DNA of 64,000 nucleotides, from the NCBI RefSeq assembly GCF_009674675.1, contig NZ_WKJC01000001.1:1061031-1125030 (forward strand). Direction: 5' to 3'. This DNA comes from Kangiella sp. HZ709. GTDB lineage: Bacteria; Pseudomonadota; Gammaproteobacteria; Enterobacterales; Kangiellaceae. Below are positions 3,475 through 53,962 of the stretch, piece by piece (position 1 is the first letter of the stretch; each line of letters starts with the position of its first letter). Position numbers and translations under genes: made by a program. The notes beneath the pieces were generated by a model. The model ran no database searches. It was not told where the DNA came from and was given only the letters and a program-made list of their open reading frames with translations.

Positions 3475-4746
<1,272 letters not shown>

Positions 4747-4769
4747 TCAAATACTTTTTGGCAGGTGGT

Positions 4770-5015
4770 TTATTGAAAGTGCTTTACTTTTTGCCATTCT
4801 TCATCGGTGTAAGCTTTAATTGTTAAAGCATGAATGGCTCCACTCGCAATATGCTCATTAACCGTAGCGTAAACCATTTGTTGGCGTTTTACAGAGCGTA
4901 AGCCAACAAAAGCTTCACTCACTAAAGTTACTGCAAAATGACTACCATCACCTTCAACTTTCATGTGTTCACAATCAATCGCATCAGAGATTAATTGTTC
5001 AATTGTTTCTATCAT
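4770..5015 (-). CDS. ibaG: BolA-family protein IbaG
   Basis: An 81-residue BolA-like protein. The family binds [2Fe-2S] clusters together with monothiol glutaredoxins and affects acid resistance and envelope traits. The conserved core GDGSHFAVTLVSEAF and the C-terminal GAIHALTIKAYTDEEW with its histidine are visible. The position directly upstream of murA matches ibaG (yrbA) in E. coli and argues against bolA itself. The mlaFEDCB genes that usually precede ibaG are not here; the divergent gene is yrbG. Confidence 0.92.
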   Translation of the reverse strand: MIETIEQLISDAIDCEHMKVEGDGSHFAVTLVSEAFVGLRSVKRQQMVYATVNEHIASGAIHALTIKAYTDEEWQKVKHFQ

Positions 5016-5170
5016 AATTCACCTTTGATTGGATTAACGCCAGAATATCCTTTAAAAATATCACTATTCTTAGAGAAAATGACCAATCTATTATCAAGTC
5101 TGTCAAAATCTGGCGAGATTTTACCTTAATTTACTCCTAGAAACAGCTATATTCTCGAAACACAGATAAG

Positions 5171-5200
5171 ATGACAGGCTTTATAAGAATCAGTTACAAT
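5171..5200 (+). promoter_or_regulatory. Possible sigma-70 promoter for the yrbG-kds-lpt operon
   Basis: ATGACA (5171-5176) and TACAAT (5195-5200) are separated by 18 bp in the 365-nt gap between ibaG and yrbG, pointing toward yrbG with a leader of about 170 nt. The leader contains a short perfect hairpin, ATGGAC-CGAA-GTCCAT, at 5298-5313. No other gene or RNA was recognised in this gap. Confidence 0.4.
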
Positions 5201-5380
5201 AGGCGGCTTGGCTAAATGCAGTAAAGGCAATGCTTTGAAACAAATTTGAGCTTGCTTTAATTTCCTGCCTGTTATGTCATTAAGATAGAGCTTAACCATG
5301 GACCGAAGTCCATAACAAGAATATTGGCCGTTAATATCAATAACATTAAAACCGCAGTCAGAAATTAAACTAGGAATTCC

Positions 5381-6364
5381 ATGTTAGAGTATCTAGCTTA
5401 CCTATTGGTAGGTATTAGCTTATTAGTTTGGAGCGCAGACCGTTTTACCGACGGTGCAGCTGCCATCGCACAAAACTTTGGCGTATCTCGCTTAATTGTA
5501 GGCTTAACCATTGTCGCCATTGGTTCATCTTCTCCCGAGATTTTCGTTTCATTAATGGACTCTATTAAATCTTGTGAGCCAGGCGAATTAAACTGTGGCC
5601 CTAAATTAGCCATTGGTAATGCTATTGGCTCGAACATTGCTAATGTTGCCATGGTTTTAGGTATTACCGCTATTGTCCGACCACTATTAGTCGACTCAAG
5701 CACTCTTCGCCGTGAAATTCCGATACTCTTTGGTGTCACCATAATGGCATTAGTATTCCTTTGGAATTTAAAACTAAGCCATTTAGAAGGTGCCATTTTA
5801 TTAACGTCTTTACTCATATACTTTATATGGCTGGTTCGTTTGGGGCTTAAGTCTCGAGTAAAAGATGATCCCATGTTAGAAGAAATTGTTGAAGAACTAC
5901 CCGATCGCATGGGCAACGGCAAGGCTATATTTTATCTAGTAATTGGTCTTGTTTTGTTAGTTTTCAGCTCAAATATCTTGATTAAAGGTGCTTCAGGTAT
6001 TGCGTTACATTTTGGCGTATCGGAAACTGTGATTGGTTTAACCATCGTAGCATTAGGCACTAGTTTACCAGAGCTTGCAGCTTCTATCGCAGGCGTCTTA
6101 AAAGAAGAGTACGAAATTGCTATCGGCAATGTTATCGGCTCCAATATTTTCAACCTTCTAGCAGTGCTCGGGATTCCGGCCTTAATCGCTGCACCAAGCA
6201 TTGAAGAAAAGATTATCACCTTTGATTACCCGGTAATGTTTTGCTTAACAGTTGCCATGGCAGTCATGGCCTATGGCTTCAAAGGCCCCGGTAAAATCAC
6301 TAGGCTTGAAGGAATCATTTTATTAGGCGTCTTTATCGGTTATTATGCGGTAAGATTCTTTTAA
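5381..6364 (+). CDS. yrbG: Calcium/sodium antiporter of the CaCA family (YrbG)
   Basis: A 327-residue inner-membrane cation exchanger of about ten helices with the two inverted alpha repeats of the family: VGLTIVAIGSSSPE with AIGNAIGSNIANVAMVLG in the first half, and IGLTIVALGTSLPE with AIGNVIGSNIFNLLAVLG in the second. The glutamates in the SSSPE and TSLPE motifs are the expected ion ligands. A loop insertion with two cysteines (around SCEPGELNCGP, about residue 65-75) lies in the first repeat. It opens the yrbG-kdsD-kdsC-lptCAB cluster, the standard order. The ion specificity cannot be read from sequence. Confidence 0.92.
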   Translation: MLEYLAYLLVGISLLVWSADRFTDGAAAIAQNFGVSRLIVGLTIVAIGSSSPEIFVSLMDSIKSCEPGELNCGPKLAIGNAIGSNIANVAMVLGITAIVRPLLVDSSTLRREIPILFGVTIMALVFLWNLKLSHLEGAILLTSLLIYFIWLVRLGLKSRVKDDPMLEEIVEELPDRMGNGKAIFYLVIGLVLLVFSSNILIKGASGIALHFGVSETVIGLTIVALGTSLPELAASIAGVLKEEYEIAIGNVIGSNIFNLLAVLGIPALIAAPSIEEKIITFDYPVMFCLTVAMAVMAYGFKGPGKITRLEGIILLGVFIGYYAVRFF

Positions 6365-6430
6365 AATCAGATAATTAAGTCTCTGCTAAACTGTAACTAT
6401 TGACAGTAATTAGTGGTGATAATTAAACAT

Positions 6431-7408
6431 ATGAACCCTACTAAGCATTCATTTATAGAAAGCGCGAAAACTGTTTTTGCTATTGAGCAAAATGCGATTC
6501 AAGAGTTAGCAGACACTCTTGGGGATGACTTTATTCGCGCATGTCAGAGTATTTTGGGTTGCCATGGCAAGGTTGTGGTCATTGGTATGGGCAAATCAGG
6601 CCATATTGGTAATAAGATGGCCGCCACACTAGCTAGTACAGGTACTCCAGCATTTTTTGTCCACCCTGCCGAAGCTAGTCATGGCGATTTAGGCATGATC
6701 AGTGAGCAAGATATTGTAATTGCCCTATCCAATTCTGGCGAAACTCATGAAGTGACCAGTTTATTACCAGTGATTAAGCGTCGCAGTATTCCTCTGATAT
6801 CAATTACTGGCAACCCTAATTCACAATTAGCCAAAGCAAGCCAGGTTCACCTTACCGTAGCGGTAAAACAAGAAGCTTGTCCACATAATTTAGCTCCTAC
6901 CGCCTCAACTACGTCGGTATTAGTATTGGCCGATGCTATCGCTGTCAGTCTGCTAGAAGCGCGTGGTTTTACCGCTGATGATTTCGCACTTTCTCACCCT
7001 GGCGGCAGCTTAGGCAAAAAGCTGTTATTAGCCGTTGACGATTTAATGCATGCTGGCGATGATTTTCCATCGGTTTCAGAAGCAGTTTCTGTAAAAGAAG
7101 CTTTACTTGAGATGACTAACAAGCGCTTGGGAATGACCGCCATTGTCAATGCTGACAAGCAGCTCTTAGGTATTTTTACAGATGGCGATTTGCGTCGAGC
7201 TTTAGAAAGCGAAACCAATATTTTAGCTAAGTCCATTGGTGAATTAATGACTAAAAACTGCAAGACTGTCACCACCGGAGCTCTGGCTTCTGAGGCAGTT
7301 CAAATAATGCAATCGAACAGCATTAATGCTTTGGTCATTTTAAATGAACAAAATGAACCTATTGGCGCTCTAAACATGCATGACCTGCTAAAAGCTGGTG
7401 TTGTCTAA
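6431..7408 (+). CDS. kdsD: Arabinose-5-phosphate isomerase KdsD
   Basis: Interconverts ribulose-5-phosphate and arabinose-5-phosphate for Kdo synthesis. The 325-residue protein has an N-terminal SIS domain (GMGKSGHIGNKMAATLAST at about 52-70, SNSGETHE, and SHPGGSLG) and two C-terminal CBS repeats (about 205-325) ending MHDLLKAGVV as in E. coli KdsD (328 aa). The ATG at 6431 is preferred: a GTG at 6413 is in frame but has no ribosome site, and GGTGA precedes 6431. It overlaps the kdsC region closely. Confidence 0.95.
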   Translation: MNPTKHSFIESAKTVFAIEQNAIQELADTLGDDFIRACQSILGCHGKVVVIGMGKSGHIGNKMAATLASTGTPAFFVHPAEASHGDLGMISEQDIVIALSNSGETHEVTSLLPVIKRRSIPLISITGNPNSQLAKASQVHLTVAVKQEACPHNLAPTASTTSVLVLADAIAVSLLEARGFTADDFALSHPGGSLGKKLLLAVDDLMHAGDDFPSVSEAVSVKEALLEMTNKRLGMTAIVNADKQLLGIFTDGDLRRALESETNILAKSIGELMTKNCKTVTTGALASEAVQIMQSNSINALVILNEQNEPIGALNMHDLLKAGVV

Positions 7409-7418
7409 CAAAACCATT

Positions 7419-7991
7419 ATGACAAAATTAAATCCTCAACTAGATAACTTATCAGAAGACTTACTCGAGAAGGCGAGCAAAATTCGTTTGCTCATTTGTG
7501 ATGTCGATGGCGTTTTAAGTAATGGTCAAGTGATCATTGGTAACTCTGGTGAAGAACTTAAGACCTTCAATATCAAAGATGGCTTTGGGATTAAAGCCTT
7601 ACAAAAAGTTGGTATTGCGACAGCAATTATCACCGGCCGTAATTCAAAAATTGTAGAAAAGCGTTGCCAAGAGCTTTCCATTCAAGACTATTATCAAGGA
7701 CATTTAGATAAAACATCTGCTTTTGCAGAGCTTTGTAAAAAATACCAAATAACTGAACAGCAAGTTTGTCATGTTGGTGATGATTTACCGGATCTCCCTT
7801 TAATCCAAACAGCAGGTTTGGGCATTGCCGTTTCAGATGCCCATTGGTTTGTCCAGAAACATGCGGATTGGATAACTTCGCAAAAGGGAGGATTTGGTGC
7901 CGTAAGAGAGGTTTCAGATTTAATTTTGCATAGCCAACATTTATTAGAAGGTCATTTGGCTAGTTATTTACAGGCTGATTTAAAAGGTTAA
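7419..7991 (+). CDS. kdsC: 3-deoxy-manno-octulosonate-8-phosphatase KdsC
   Basis: A HAD-superfamily phosphatase that releases Kdo from Kdo-8-phosphate. The nucleophile motif ICDVDGVLSNG puts the two catalytic aspartates at residues 28 and 30; AIITGRNSKIVEKRC and the late acidic motif VGDDLPDLPL follow. The length (190 aa) matches E. coli KdsC (188). The start is uncertain: ATG 7419 is 10 nt after the kdsD stop, while a GTG at 7398 inside kdsD is also in frame; neither has a strong ribosome site. The C-terminal GGFGAVREVSDLIL is the family's conserved end. Confidence 0.94.
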   Translation: MTKLNPQLDNLSEDLLEKASKIRLLICDVDGVLSNGQVIIGNSGEELKTFNIKDGFGIKALQKVGIATAIITGRNSKIVEKRCQELSIQDYYQGHLDKTSAFAELCKKYQITEQQVCHVGDDLPDLPLIQTAGLGIAVSDAHWFVQKHADWITSQKGGFGAVREVSDLILHSQHLLEGHLASYLQADLKG

Positions 7992-7993
7992 AT

Positions 7994-8548
7994 ATGAACT
8001 TTTTAAAAGGCCGCGCCATTTTATGGCTACTCATTCCAATAACGGTTATCGTTGCTTTTTTATGGGATAAAACCGAAGTTGCCGCGCCCAATTTTATACA
8101 AGAAAAGACTAACCCTGATTACTTCCTTATCAATACCGAGTCTTATGATTTTAATGGTGAAGGGTTACCAGAAAGACGGTTTACTAGCGCTAAAACTTTG
8201 CATTATATATTTAAGCAAGAAACGGCAATGGAAAATCCAGTTTTAACCATCATCAATAGCAACAATGAACAATGGAAAGTAACCGCAAATAGAGCAACCA
8301 ATAAAGAACTAAGCGAAGAGCTGCTACTAACCAATGGCGTAAGTATTCTGATTAATGATGCCGGTGGTGCTAGCGCTGAGCTAACGACAGACAATTTATT
8401 GATAGATCTAGCATCCGAAAATGCTTCCACAGAAAGTGCTATTTTATTAAAAAGTAATTTATATCAGCTAACAGCCATAGGTATGGATGCAGACCTAAAA
8501 GAGAATGTTATTCACTTTAAATCTAAGGTAGTATCAGAAGAACTATGA
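7994..8548 (+). CDS. lptC: LPS export protein LptC
   Basis: A 184-residue bitopic protein: one N-terminal helix (about 7-24) and a periplasmic beta-jellyroll domain. LptC takes LPS from the LptB2FG extractor and passes it to LptA across the periplasm. Sequence conservation is low in this family, so the call rests on topology, length and position between kdsC and lptA. The stop overlaps the lptA start by 4 bp (ATGA), which implies translational coupling. Confidence 0.88.
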   Translation: MNFLKGRAILWLLIPITVIVAFLWDKTEVAAPNFIQEKTNPDYFLINTESYDFNGEGLPERRFTSAKTLHYIFKQETAMENPVLTIINSNNEQWKVTANRATNKELSEELLLTNGVSILINDAGGASAELTTDNLLIDLASENASTESAILLKSNLYQLTAIGMDADLKENVIHFKSKVVSEEL

Positions 8549-10174: not shown

Positions 10175-11569
10175 ATGAACCAAGCGTTAGAGTTACAACT
10201 CAAACAGCAGATTAAACTCAATCCTCAGTTGCAGCAATCAATTAAACTGCTCCAGCTATCTCAGCTAGAATTGGCTCAAGAAATTCAATATCAACTTGAT
10301 AATAACCCACTACTTATTTGCGAAGACTCGCAAAACAACCCTGAAACGGATGAGTTCAACAGCAAACAGCTGACTGCTAATAATCTAATTTCAGCTAGCA
10401 ATCTAACCAACACGAACTCTCACACTCAGGAAAACTATTGGGAAGCTATTCCAGATCAGGTAGACTTTAAAGAGTCTTTAGAATCTCAGCTACAGCTCCA
10501 CCATCTGTCTAGAAAGGATCTTGAGATTGGCTACTATATTATAGAAAACCTCAACGAATCAGGCTTTTTGACCTTAAGTGAAAGAGAAATAGCCAATCAG
10601 ATTCGACGGGATACACAACTAGAAACTGACGAAGATGAAGTGCTGGCCATAAAACATCTGATTCAAACTTTTGAACCGAGTGGTTGTGCTTGTTTGGATT
10701 TACAAGAATTTTTGTCTTTCCAAATTACCCATAACCGTAACTTAGCCATTTCGCAACAACGAATGTCGCAATTAAAAATATTATTCAATCACCACTTTCA
10801 GTTATTAGTGGCTCACCAATATGAAAAAATTGAAAATAAATTAGGCATAAGTAAAGATAAATTAAAAACACTACTAAGTATCGTTCAAACACTTCGGCAA
10901 AGACCCAATGACTATCGCGCTGATGACAGCGTCGACTATATCAAGCCGGATATCAATTTCTCGCAGAGTAACCACCAGTGGCAAGCAAAAGTTAACACTA
11001 GAGAGTTACCAAGGTTACAAATAAATCCTGACTATCTGGAGTTGGCCAAACAAACGGTTAAGACCGATGAAAAAAAATATATTAAAGATAAGGCTCAACT
11101 AGCACAGCAGTTTCTAAATTCATTAGCAGCTCGAAAGTCTACTTTGCAAAGAATTGCAGACTATTTAATAGTCCACCAAAAAGATTTTTTTGAAAAAGGC
11201 GATATTGCGCTAAAACCATTAAACCTAATCACTATTGCAACTGCTTTAGATTTACATGAGTCAACAATCTCCAGAGCTACCAGTAATAAGTATTGCCAAA
11301 CTCCCAGCGGAGTTATCCCTTTAAAATCATTGTTTTCAAATGCTATTAATCCTGAAAAAGGAGGTGAATGGTCACAAACTGCGGTGAAACATCAGGTCCA
11401 AGAAATCATTAAATCTGAACCTTCCCAAAAACCCCTTAGCGATAGCTCAATAGTCAGTTTATTAGCTGAATTAGGAATCACAGTCGCCAGAAGAACCGTG
11501 GCAAAATATCGTGATGCTCTTAATATTCCTAGCGCAACTAAGCGCAAACAGTTATCGACTATCCTTTAA
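10175..11569 (+). CDS. rpoN: RNA polymerase sigma-54 factor RpoN
   Basis: The 464-residue alternative sigma factor that needs AAA+ enhancer-binding activators and recognises GG-N10-GC (-24/-12) promoters. Region I is glutamine- and leucine-rich (residues 3-45), the middle carries the core-binding domain, and the C-terminal RpoN box ARRTVAKYRD is at 438-447. The length and order rpoN-hpf-ptsN-rapZ match other gammaproteobacteria. A sigma-54-type promoter occurs elsewhere in this window at 44198. Confidence 0.97.
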   Translation: MNQALELQLKQQIKLNPQLQQSIKLLQLSQLELAQEIQYQLDNNPLLICEDSQNNPETDEFNSKQLTANNLISASNLTNTNSHTQENYWEAIPDQVDFKESLESQLQLHHLSRKDLEIGYYIIENLNESGFLTLSEREIANQIRRDTQLETDEDEVLAIKHLIQTFEPSGCACLDLQEFLSFQITHNRNLAISQQRMSQLKILFNHHFQLLVAHQYEKIENKLGISKDKLKTLLSIVQTLRQRPNDYRADDSVDYIKPDINFSQSNHQWQAKVNTRELPRLQINPDYLELAKQTVKTDEKKYIKDKAQLAQQFLNSLAARKSTLQRIADYLIVHQKDFFEKGDIALKPLNLITIATALDLHESTISRATSNKYCQTPSGVIPLKSLFSNAINPEKGGEWSQTAVKHQVQEIIKSEPSQKPLSDSSIVSLLAELGITVARRTVAKYRDALNIPSATKRKQLSTIL

Positions 11570-44059: not shown

Positions 44060-44086
44060 AAAGGGCACATTAAGTGCCCTTTTTTA
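44060..44086 (+). terminator. Terminator after fabV
   Basis: AAGGGCAC and GTGCCCTT pair over ATTAA with a T-run, 19 nt after the fabV stop. It isolates the downstream RNA candidate from fabV read-through. Confidence 0.92.
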
Positions 44087-44197
44087 TTGTTTTGAGTTAT
44101 ATAGACTGTTCAAATTATTTACAGTTTAACTAAGAAATAACTACTTAGAGTCATATAAGAAAAACAAAACAATATAATTCAATAACTTAACTGGATT

Positions 44198-44211
44198 GGC
44201 ACACTTTATGC
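44198..44211 (+). promoter_or_regulatory. Sigma-54 promoter (-24/-12), exact GG-N10-GC
   Basis: TTGGCACACTTTATGCTT contains GG (44198-44199) and GC (44210-44211) exactly 10 bp apart, with TTGGCAC matching the -24 consensus TGGCAC and ATGCTT close to the -12 consensus TTGCWT. The predicted transcription start is near 44223. It points into a 112-nt stretch with its own terminator. The upstream 100 nt are AT-rich, as expected for a DNA-bending region, but no enhancer site was recognised. Confidence 0.7.
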
Positions 44212-44222
44212 TTATATTAATA

Positions 44223-44334
44223 TGTATGCACTCCTAAGTGCAGACTATCCCCGGCTAACTGAAGGCAACTACCCGCTTAAGGTTAGCCAATCAATGCGCA
44301 AGCCATTTGCCCATCAAATGATGGGCATTTTTTT
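44223..44334 (+). ncRNA. Candidate sigma-54-dependent small RNA
   Basis: A roughly 112-nt transcript is bounded by the sigma-54 promoter and a rho-independent terminator (TGCCCATC/GATGGGCA at 44308-44327 with AAAT loop and seven Ts to 44334). This terminator works only on the plus strand, and fabV already has its own at 44060-44086, so something else must be transcribed. Inside are a perfect hairpin TGCACT-CCTA-AGTGCA (44227-44242) and a second stem GGCTAAC/GTTAGCC (44253-44259 and 44282-44288) enclosing a 22-nt loop with ACCCGC. The CTCCTA and CCCC segments are C-rich and could pair with ribosome sites. An open frame of 45 codons from ATG 44222 exists but has no ribosome site and runs through the terminator. 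I found no match to a known RNA family. The rest of the 328-nt gap (44042-44369) is empty. Confidence 0.6.
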
Positions 44335-51812: not shown

Positions 51813-53819
51813 CTATCTCAATAATGGCGCTATCACCAACGATACAATCGCCATGACATTTATTAAGATGTTCATCGATGGACCCGAAGTATCTTTGAAA
51901 GGATCGCCAACCGTATCACCAACTACCGTGGCACTATGAGTGTCTGAGCCTTTGCCACCAAAGTTGCCTTTTTCAACGTACTTTTTCGCGTTGTCCCAAG
52001 CACCACCAGCGTTAGCCATCATCAATGCCATCAAGACACAACCTAATAAAGCACCGGCCAGCATGCCAGCTAAACCAATCGCTCCTAATGGCGACATGCC
52101 CACAATAACTGGTGCTGAAACAGCGATAACACCCGGAAGTAACATACGCTTTAAGGCTGCTGTAGTGGCAATATCCACACACTTAGCGGTATCTGGTTCG
52201 GCTTTACCTTCTAACAATCCTGGAATTTCCTTAAATTGACGACGAATTTCATTAATCATATCAAAAGCTGCATCACCAACTGCAGTCATAGTGATAGACG
52301 CAATCAGGAACGGAATAGTACCGCCAATCAGCATTCCGACTATGACCGTTGGGTTGGATAAATTAATGTCCGCTGGATTAATGCCTGCCGATTTAATAAA
52401 TGCGGCGATAATTGCCAAAGCTGCTAGTGCCGCTGCGCCAATCGCAAAGCCTTTACCAATTGCTGCTGTGGTATTTCCAAGCTCATCAAGTGAGTCGGTA
52501 ATTTCACGAACTTCCTTACCCATACCGCCCATTTCAGCAATACCCCCAGCGTTGTCAGCAACAGGACCATAAGCATCAATCGCCATAGTAATACCAACAG
52601 TAGACAGCATGCCAACAGCAGCAATACCAACACCATAGAGACCGGCTAACTCAGTCGAAGCATAAATAATTCCGCACAAAACAAATATTGGGATCACCAC
52701 AGATTGCATCCCTACGGATAGACCTGTAATCATGACTGTCGCCGAGCCGGTTTCGCCTGATTTAGCGATTTTCTTAACCGGTGTTGAACCTGTGTAGTAC
52801 TCCGTGATTAAACCAATGGCCACACCTCCCACAGCGCCAGCAACTACTGCCCACCAATAATTTGTAGGGATCTCTAGTTGCACTGCTAACCAATAGGCTG
52901 CAGCAATAAATATAACTGGGGCGCCCATGGTCCCAATTCTTAAGGCTGTCGCTGGAGCCGAACTTGAAAATAGTCGTACCACAATAATCATGACGATAGA
53001 AGCAACCATACCCATCGAGGCTAATAACAAGGGGAAAGACATTAAAGCTGCTTGGTAATCTAAACCCGTTAAAGTGGCAGCAATGGCAATTGATGCAATC
53101 ATAGAGCCACAGTAGGATTCAAAAATATCCGAACCCATGCCCGCAACATCACCGACATTATCACCCACGTTATCAGCAATAACACCTGGGTTACGAGGAT
53201 CATCTTCTGGAATGCCAGCTTCAATTTTGCCAACTAAGTCAGCACCAACATCCGCCGACTTGGTGAAAATACCACCACCTACACGGGAAAATAGAGCAAC
53301 ACAGGATGCACCCATACCAAAACCTTCAAGCGCATGTACTGCACTTACATCGGTTGCTGGGTTGAAATACCAGAATAAACCGCCTAAACCAATAAGACCC
53401 AAGGCTGCCACGCACAAGCCCATAATAGAACCACCAAAAAAGGCAACAGATAATGCCGCCGAAGCACCTTCTTTTTGCGCAGCAGTTGCGGTTCTCACAT
53501 TTGCTTTAGTTGCTGCATACATGCCTAACCAGCCAGCGATTGACGATGACAAGGCACCTGCAATCACAGCTATAGCTGTCTTGCTTCCCAGTTGCCACCA
53601 AACCAATGCCACTAAAACCGCGACAAAAGCAGCTAACATCGTGTATTCACGTTTCATGAATACCATCGCACCTAAATGGATCTGATCAGCGATTTTCTTG
53701 ATGGATGACTCCCCTTCAGGATACTTTTTCACCAAGATATAAATCACAAAAGCAAACACTAAACCCACCAAGCCAAGAATTGGCGGCAGCGCAAGATTCT
53801 CTAACATAGATTCTTTCAT
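51813..53819 (-). CDS. hppA: Ion-translocating membrane pyrophosphatase HppA, K+-dependent type
   Basis: A 668-residue integral pyrophosphatase with about 16 helices that couples PPi hydrolysis to H+ or Na+ export. The PPi-binding acidic motif DVGADLVGKIEAGIPEDDPRNPGVIADNVGDNVGD is at about 200-235, with GMGSDIFESYCGS next, and DSLDELGNTTAAIGKG at about 450-465 has Ala where K+-independent enzymes have Lys, so activity should need K+. The end, KDTSGPSMNILINVMAIVSLVIAP, is typical. ATG 53819 has GGGGA a few nt upstream; GTG 53837 in frame lacks one. It is divergent from ppa across about 170 nt. H+ versus Na+ cannot be told from sequence. Confidence 0.95.
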   Translation of the reverse strand: MKESMLENLALPPILGLVGLVFAFVIYILVKKYPEGESSIKKIADQIHLGAMVFMKREYTMLAAFVAVLVALVWWQLGSKTAIAVIAGALSSSIAGWLGMYAATKANVRTATAAQKEGASAALSVAFFGGSIMGLCVAALGLIGLGGLFWYFNPATDVSAVHALEGFGMGASCVALFSRVGGGIFTKSADVGADLVGKIEAGIPEDDPRNPGVIADNVGDNVGDVAGMGSDIFESYCGSMIASIAIAATLTGLDYQAALMSFPLLLASMGMVASIVMIIVVRLFSSSAPATALRIGTMGAPVIFIAAAYWLAVQLEIPTNYWWAVVAGAVGGVAIGLITEYYTGSTPVKKIAKSGETGSATVMITGLSVGMQSVVIPIFVLCGIIYASTELAGLYGVGIAAVGMLSTVGITMAIDAYGPVADNAGGIAEMGGMGKEVREITDSLDELGNTTAAIGKGFAIGAAALAALAIIAAFIKSAGINPADINLSNPTVIVGMLIGGTIPFLIASITMTAVGDAAFDMINEIRRQFKEIPGLLEGKAEPDTAKCVDIATTAALKRMLLPGVIAVSAPVIVGMSPLGAIGLAGMLAGALLGCVLMALMMANAGGAWDNAKKYVEKGNFGGKGSDTHSATVVGDTVGDPFKDTSGPSMNILINVMAIVSLVIAPLLR

Positions 53820-53962
53820 ACTATCCCCATTGCTCACTATCTATTTGATTATTAAATGATTTTTAATTATTGCGAATCCAATCTAACAAACTTATCCAAA
53901 ATGTACAATTTTTATGCAAAAAGTTTAGAGTTTAAGCAGTGTTTTTTCGATTTAAACAGTTG

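Follow-up and report, generated by a model that had tools for sequence, protein, structure and literature searches.

Downstream of fabV, the stretch of Kangiella sp. HZ709 DNA analysed here (64,000 nt, hereafter the window) holds a second terminator that no gene explains, preceded by hairpins and a GG-N10-GC element. A preliminary description had read this arrangement as a new RpoN-controlled small RNA, which raises the question of whether the locus is a gene in its own right and, if so, which regulator would drive it and what its product could act upon. By direct reading, the two hairpins and the GG and GC dinucleotides lie where that description had placed them (Table 1). A scan of both strands between 43950 and 44450 likewise finds two terminators on the plus strand against 0.3 expected, one after fabV (44060-44082) and one at 44308-44327, with none on the minus strand; the element is therefore plus-strand specific and has a terminator separate from that of fabV. 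The comparison of genomes set out below makes it probable, in our view, that an independent gene lies here, encoding a small regulatory RNA that acts in trans and is controlled by PrsK-PrsR and sigma-54.

Table 1. Features of the RNA locus, and rpoN, in window coordinates.
Feature	Position	Strand	Basis
rpoN (sigma-54), between lptB and hpf	10175-11569	+	TIGR02395; ORF
Motif 1 of Haft et al., TGTTCAAATTATTTACA, predicted enhancer for PrsR	44107-44123	+	GT-N8-TTTACA in 20/20 Kangiella, at fixed distance
Putative IHF-like site ATTCAATAACTTA, with one mismatch to WATCAANNNNTTR	44177-44189	+	
Sigma-54 promoter TGGCACACTTTATGCTT	44197-44213	+	-24 GG 44198-44199, -12 GC 44210-44211; 12/12 genomes with rpoN, 0/8 without
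Small RNA, about 112 nt	44223-44334	+	Covariance model, 20/20 genomes; fold z = -4.8
5' hairpin of RNA	44227-44242	+	10/10 paired; one inner pair changed on both sides
Unpaired, C-rich linker joining the hairpins, GACTATCCCC	44243-44252	+	
Second hairpin	44253-44288	+	Changes on both sides of a basal stem that stays 100% paired
Near-invariant block TCAATGCGCAAGCCATTTGCCCA	44291-44313	+	Almost the same in 20/20 genomes; largely unpaired as far as 44307
Intrinsic terminator	44308-44334	+	Terminator scan; stem covariation

The RNA family and its candidate pairing sites

The predicted product, roughly 110 nt long, would carry two hairpins and then a single-stranded block that is near-invariant, and would end in the terminator, whose stem is followed by T7 at 44328-44334. 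Its probable 5' end was set 11-12 nt beyond the -12 GC, and none of 200 shuffled sequences folds as stably. A covariance-model search of related genomes had been proposed as a check on the initial reading; model R1, built from 10 sequences, recovers all 20 Kangiella copies, as does a DNA search; the model scores range from 96 to 124 bits where rpoN is present (12 genomes) and from 56 to 61 bits where it is missing (8 genomes). In every genome the RNA is flanked by fabV and the LON-domain gene in the order fabV > RNA < LON gene, the stems covary, and the given pairing outscores slid and shuffled controls. The near-invariant block CAATGCGCAAGCCATTNGCCCA is common to the family across the genus, and the linker reads TATCCCC in most sigma-54 genomes (it is changed in G015 and G004) and CTTCCC in the rpoN-less clade. 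By these comparisons the RNA forms a family that extends through the whole genus Kangiella. Twenty genomes from five other Kangiellaceae genera contain no convincing homologue, the best match (E = 0.007) falling in the model's own noise range, and outside Kangiella/Kangiellaceae the exact block CAATGCGCAAGCCATTNGCCC has no match among 84,980 species. The RNA had also been thought unlike known families, and an Rfam scan of the window bears this out, returning tRNAs only; the GlmY/GlmZ, Qrr and CrcZ models stay below their gathering cut-offs, and the best sub-threshold matches belong to other families.

The conserved block contains an invariant ATG, from which the locus might instead encode a short peptide (ATGCGCAAGCCA...). 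This coding explanation is almost certainly wrong: the terminator loop differs in length by non-multiples of three, so that no ORF is conserved, conservation does not follow a codon pattern, and no Shine-Dalgarno sequence precedes the ATG.

Base pairing of this RNA with mRNAs could plausibly involve the C-rich linker or the invariant unpaired block. There is no support for the more specific suggestion of ribosome sites masked by the C-rich loops, in that the complementary ribosome-binding sites found are not conserved, and the target prediction with these loops that had been called for yields no conserved target in the sequences searched. For example, the ribosome-binding site of hppA, a Na+-pumping pyrophosphatase gene (53778-53837 of the window, in genome G000), shares about 10 nt of complementarity with the linker ACUAUCCCC, which relatives do not keep. 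Similarly, that of a TonB-like gene in G018 (GGGAAGACAATGA, L214 5114-5130) is a perfect 13-nt complement of the RNA of the same genome and is not kept in other rpoN-less species. Matches to the complement of the invariant block were, in the loci read, terminators or coding sequence, none of them shared at a start codon.

The sigma-54 box, motif 1 and the distribution of rpoN

The sequence TTGGCACRNTTTATGCTT precedes the RNA in 12 genomes (as CTGGCAC in G015) and is absent from 8, and the 12 are exactly those that score above the cut-off for the rpoN family; in the window, rpoN matches TIGR02395 at 402 bits over cut-off. The 8 genomes that lack the box give no TIGR02395 match, 7 of them being about 99-100% complete, and in G010 a 427 bp gap separates lptB and hpf without an rpoN remnant. 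RpoN identity between G000 and G013 is just 42%. Taken alone, the box is not beyond chance, because TGGCAC-N6-TGC (0.47 expected per window) is present in 39 of 100 shuffled windows. Furthermore, the rpoN-less species form one clade in a tree with one weak node, so the co-occurrence of box and rpoN represents one evolutionary event, not eight. It is the strict retention of the box wherever rpoN exists that speaks for a function. The proposal of a new, terminator-ended RNA under RpoN control thereby receives strong comparative support, together with the genus-wide occurrence of the RNA and the lack of an Rfam match; it does not hold everywhere, as 8 of the 20 species keep the RNA without rpoN.

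The box is one part of a larger upstream module. Haft et al. (2006; PMC1569441) describe proteobacterial PEP-CTERM genes as preceded by a 17-nt motif ending in TTTACA and a sigma-54 box, with a spacer of 62.8 +/- 10.6 nt (range 32-92), and predict PrsR as the binder of this motif 1. The Kangiella spacer is 73-74 nt in 12/12 genomes with rpoN, within the published range and ahead of a -24 GG/-12 GC box; compared by length, TTTACA end and spacing only, the locus appears to fit the PrsR module. The combined pattern TTTACA-N56..86-TGGCAY-N6-TGC occurs once in the window versus 0.03 expected, and the RNA locus is its sole match in the whole genome; over the 20 genomes it finds the RNA locus in 12/12 with rpoN, plus 8 scattered matches. 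A mis-spaced version (N5, i.e. GG-N9-GC), used as a spacing control, misses the RNA locus in all genomes. In the sigma-54 genomes the putative IHF-like site, between enhancer and box, starts 20 nt ahead of TGG, and in 5 of 12 it matches the consensus perfectly. A GlrR-type TGTC-N10-GACA enhancer was also considered and was rejected for its wrong spacing.

The survival of the RNA without rpoN could also mean that a real RNA is transcribed by sigma-70 polymerase in all species and that the sigma-54 box is fortuitous; in fact, a 9-of-12 sigma-70-like match, TTGGCA-16-TAATAT (44196-44223), overlaps the box. Such matches are within chance, however (2 found, 2.6 expected), and the box at its fixed distance from motif 1 is kept in every genome with rpoN and lost in every genome without it, which makes this explanation very unlikely. 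The preferred reading is sigma-54-dependent: in the ancestral form of the circuit (12 of 20 species, that of the window included), phosphorylated PrsR would bind motif 1, some 100 nt upstream, and remodel the sigma-54 polymerase at the -24/-12 box, with IHF possibly bending the DNA in between.

PrsK-PrsR as the candidate control system

The probable activator, PrsR, had not been foreseen in the preliminary description. In the genome of the window, PrsR (687 bits, cut-off 503) adjoins PrsK (358 bits). Across the genus PrsR was found in 19/20 genomes, the exception being G002 (55% complete), and is present in all 12 that have rpoN; its orthologues form one supported clade in the tree, spanning the groups with and without rpoN. 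Genome comparison also shows that no exosortase is over cut-off in any of the 20 Kangiella genomes. The same search gives 216-220 bits in two sister-genus genomes, which indicates that it works. No motif 1+2 lies within 40 kb of the exosortase of one sister genome, G024, a result that is uninformative. The Kangiella module thus resembles the PEP-CTERM promoters of PMC1569441 in its motif, spacer, box and accompanying PrsK/PrsR, but lies upstream of a terminator-ended non-coding RNA, not of a PEP-CTERM gene, in a genus that lacks exosortase. PrsK-PrsR appears to have been redirected from PEP-CTERM surface-protein genes to a small RNA and, if so, PrsR acts here apart from protein sorting. In another system, RpoN dependence of a PEP-CTERM gene has been shown experimentally (PMC9850573). 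Compared with the PEP-CTERM kinase family model, the PrsK of the window's genome (L057 2396-3862) falls short by about 260 positions at its N-terminal end, which correspond to the membrane sensor part.

The genus has another sigma-54 response regulator, bEBP2, which might drive the RNA in place of PrsR, and a sigma-54 box almost the same as that of the RNA (TTGGCACACTTTTTGCTT in G011) precedes the gene adjoining it. We think this unlikely, since the tree places no clear bEBP2 orthologue in G019, G006, G012, G003 or G013, all of which have RNA and box, whereas PrsR accompanies rpoN throughout and motif 1 agrees with the published description of the PrsR site in length, 3' end and spacing. At the bEBP2 locus itself (L058, G000:C3:234000-247000, 4840-8251), the response regulator and a histidine kinase adjoin a gene of 209 aa that has no Pfam or NCBIfam match, with sigma-54-like boxes before this gene and near the kinase gene.

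Small RNAs driven by sigma-54 include GlmY/GlmZ, Qrr and CrcZ, which are activated by GlrR (in Enterobacteriaceae), LuxO and CbrB, respectively. The Kangiella locus resembles GlmY/GlmZ in its sigma-54 promoter and in the IHF-like site that lies between this and the enhancer, and rapZ is present in the window's genome; unlike them, its RNA has no Rfam match and its best activator candidate is PrsR, the NCBIfam GlrR cut-off being reached by neither of the activators tested. With Qrr and CrcZ it shares an intergenic small RNA, a response regulator and sigma-54, and differs in the regulator and, again, in the lack of a sequence match in Rfam. In the open-access literature searched, neither Kangiella nor PrsK/PrsR is connected with a small RNA. 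Sigma-54-dependent small RNAs are already known; new here are the RNA itself, its candidate regulator and the suggested switch of sigma factor described below.

PrsR and the RNA after the loss of rpoN

Comparison of PrsR sequences shows that the GAFTGA motif, the loop through which the activator contacts sigma-54, is kept in the 12 genomes with rpoN and lost in the 7 rpoN-less genomes in which PrsR was found, where ATGFS, ASGFS or AGFNQ-like sequences replace it. These proteins retain the receiver aspartate, the Walker motifs and the C-terminal DNA-binding helix. Sigma54_activat scores alone had given the impression that PrsR is absent from the rpoN-less clade, which is wrong: the tree places it there in a diverged form. 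Motif 1 is kept as well, at 83-84 nt from a TAATCT element in 8/8 rpoN-less genomes, and in several of these a second TACA-ending copy follows it.

That PrsR lacks GAFTGA in the rpoN-less clade while the RNA and motif 1 are kept suggests a sigma switch, and the retention of motif 1 points to continued control of the RNA by PrsR, presumably through sigma-70. Activators without GAFTGA are known at sigma-70 promoters, e.g., NtrC of Rhodobacter capsulatus and of Caulobacter (PMC10274813). PrsR of the rpoN-less clade resembles these in having lost GAFTGA while keeping Walker A/B and the receiver aspartate; it differs in that rpoN itself has been lost and the small RNA promoter appears to have switched. 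We give about even chances to the fuller scenario in which the circuit outlived its own sigma factor: rpoN was lost, PrsR shed its sigma-54 loop, the small RNA promoter was converted to sigma-70 nearly in place, and the PrsR site and RNA were kept, leaving a former PEP-CTERM regulator to serve mainly one small RNA.

Species pairs that differ in having rpoN provide a natural experiment: they can show how a promoter that depends on an enhancer changes together with its activator once sigma-54 is gone, and they allow a direct test, in cultured species, of what becomes of enhancer-binding proteins when rpoN is lost. Elsewhere in the window's genome, which has rpoN, a PilR-like regulator beside a PilS-like kinase (L059, G000:C4:8000-17500, 4066-5442) is likewise without the GAFTGA region.
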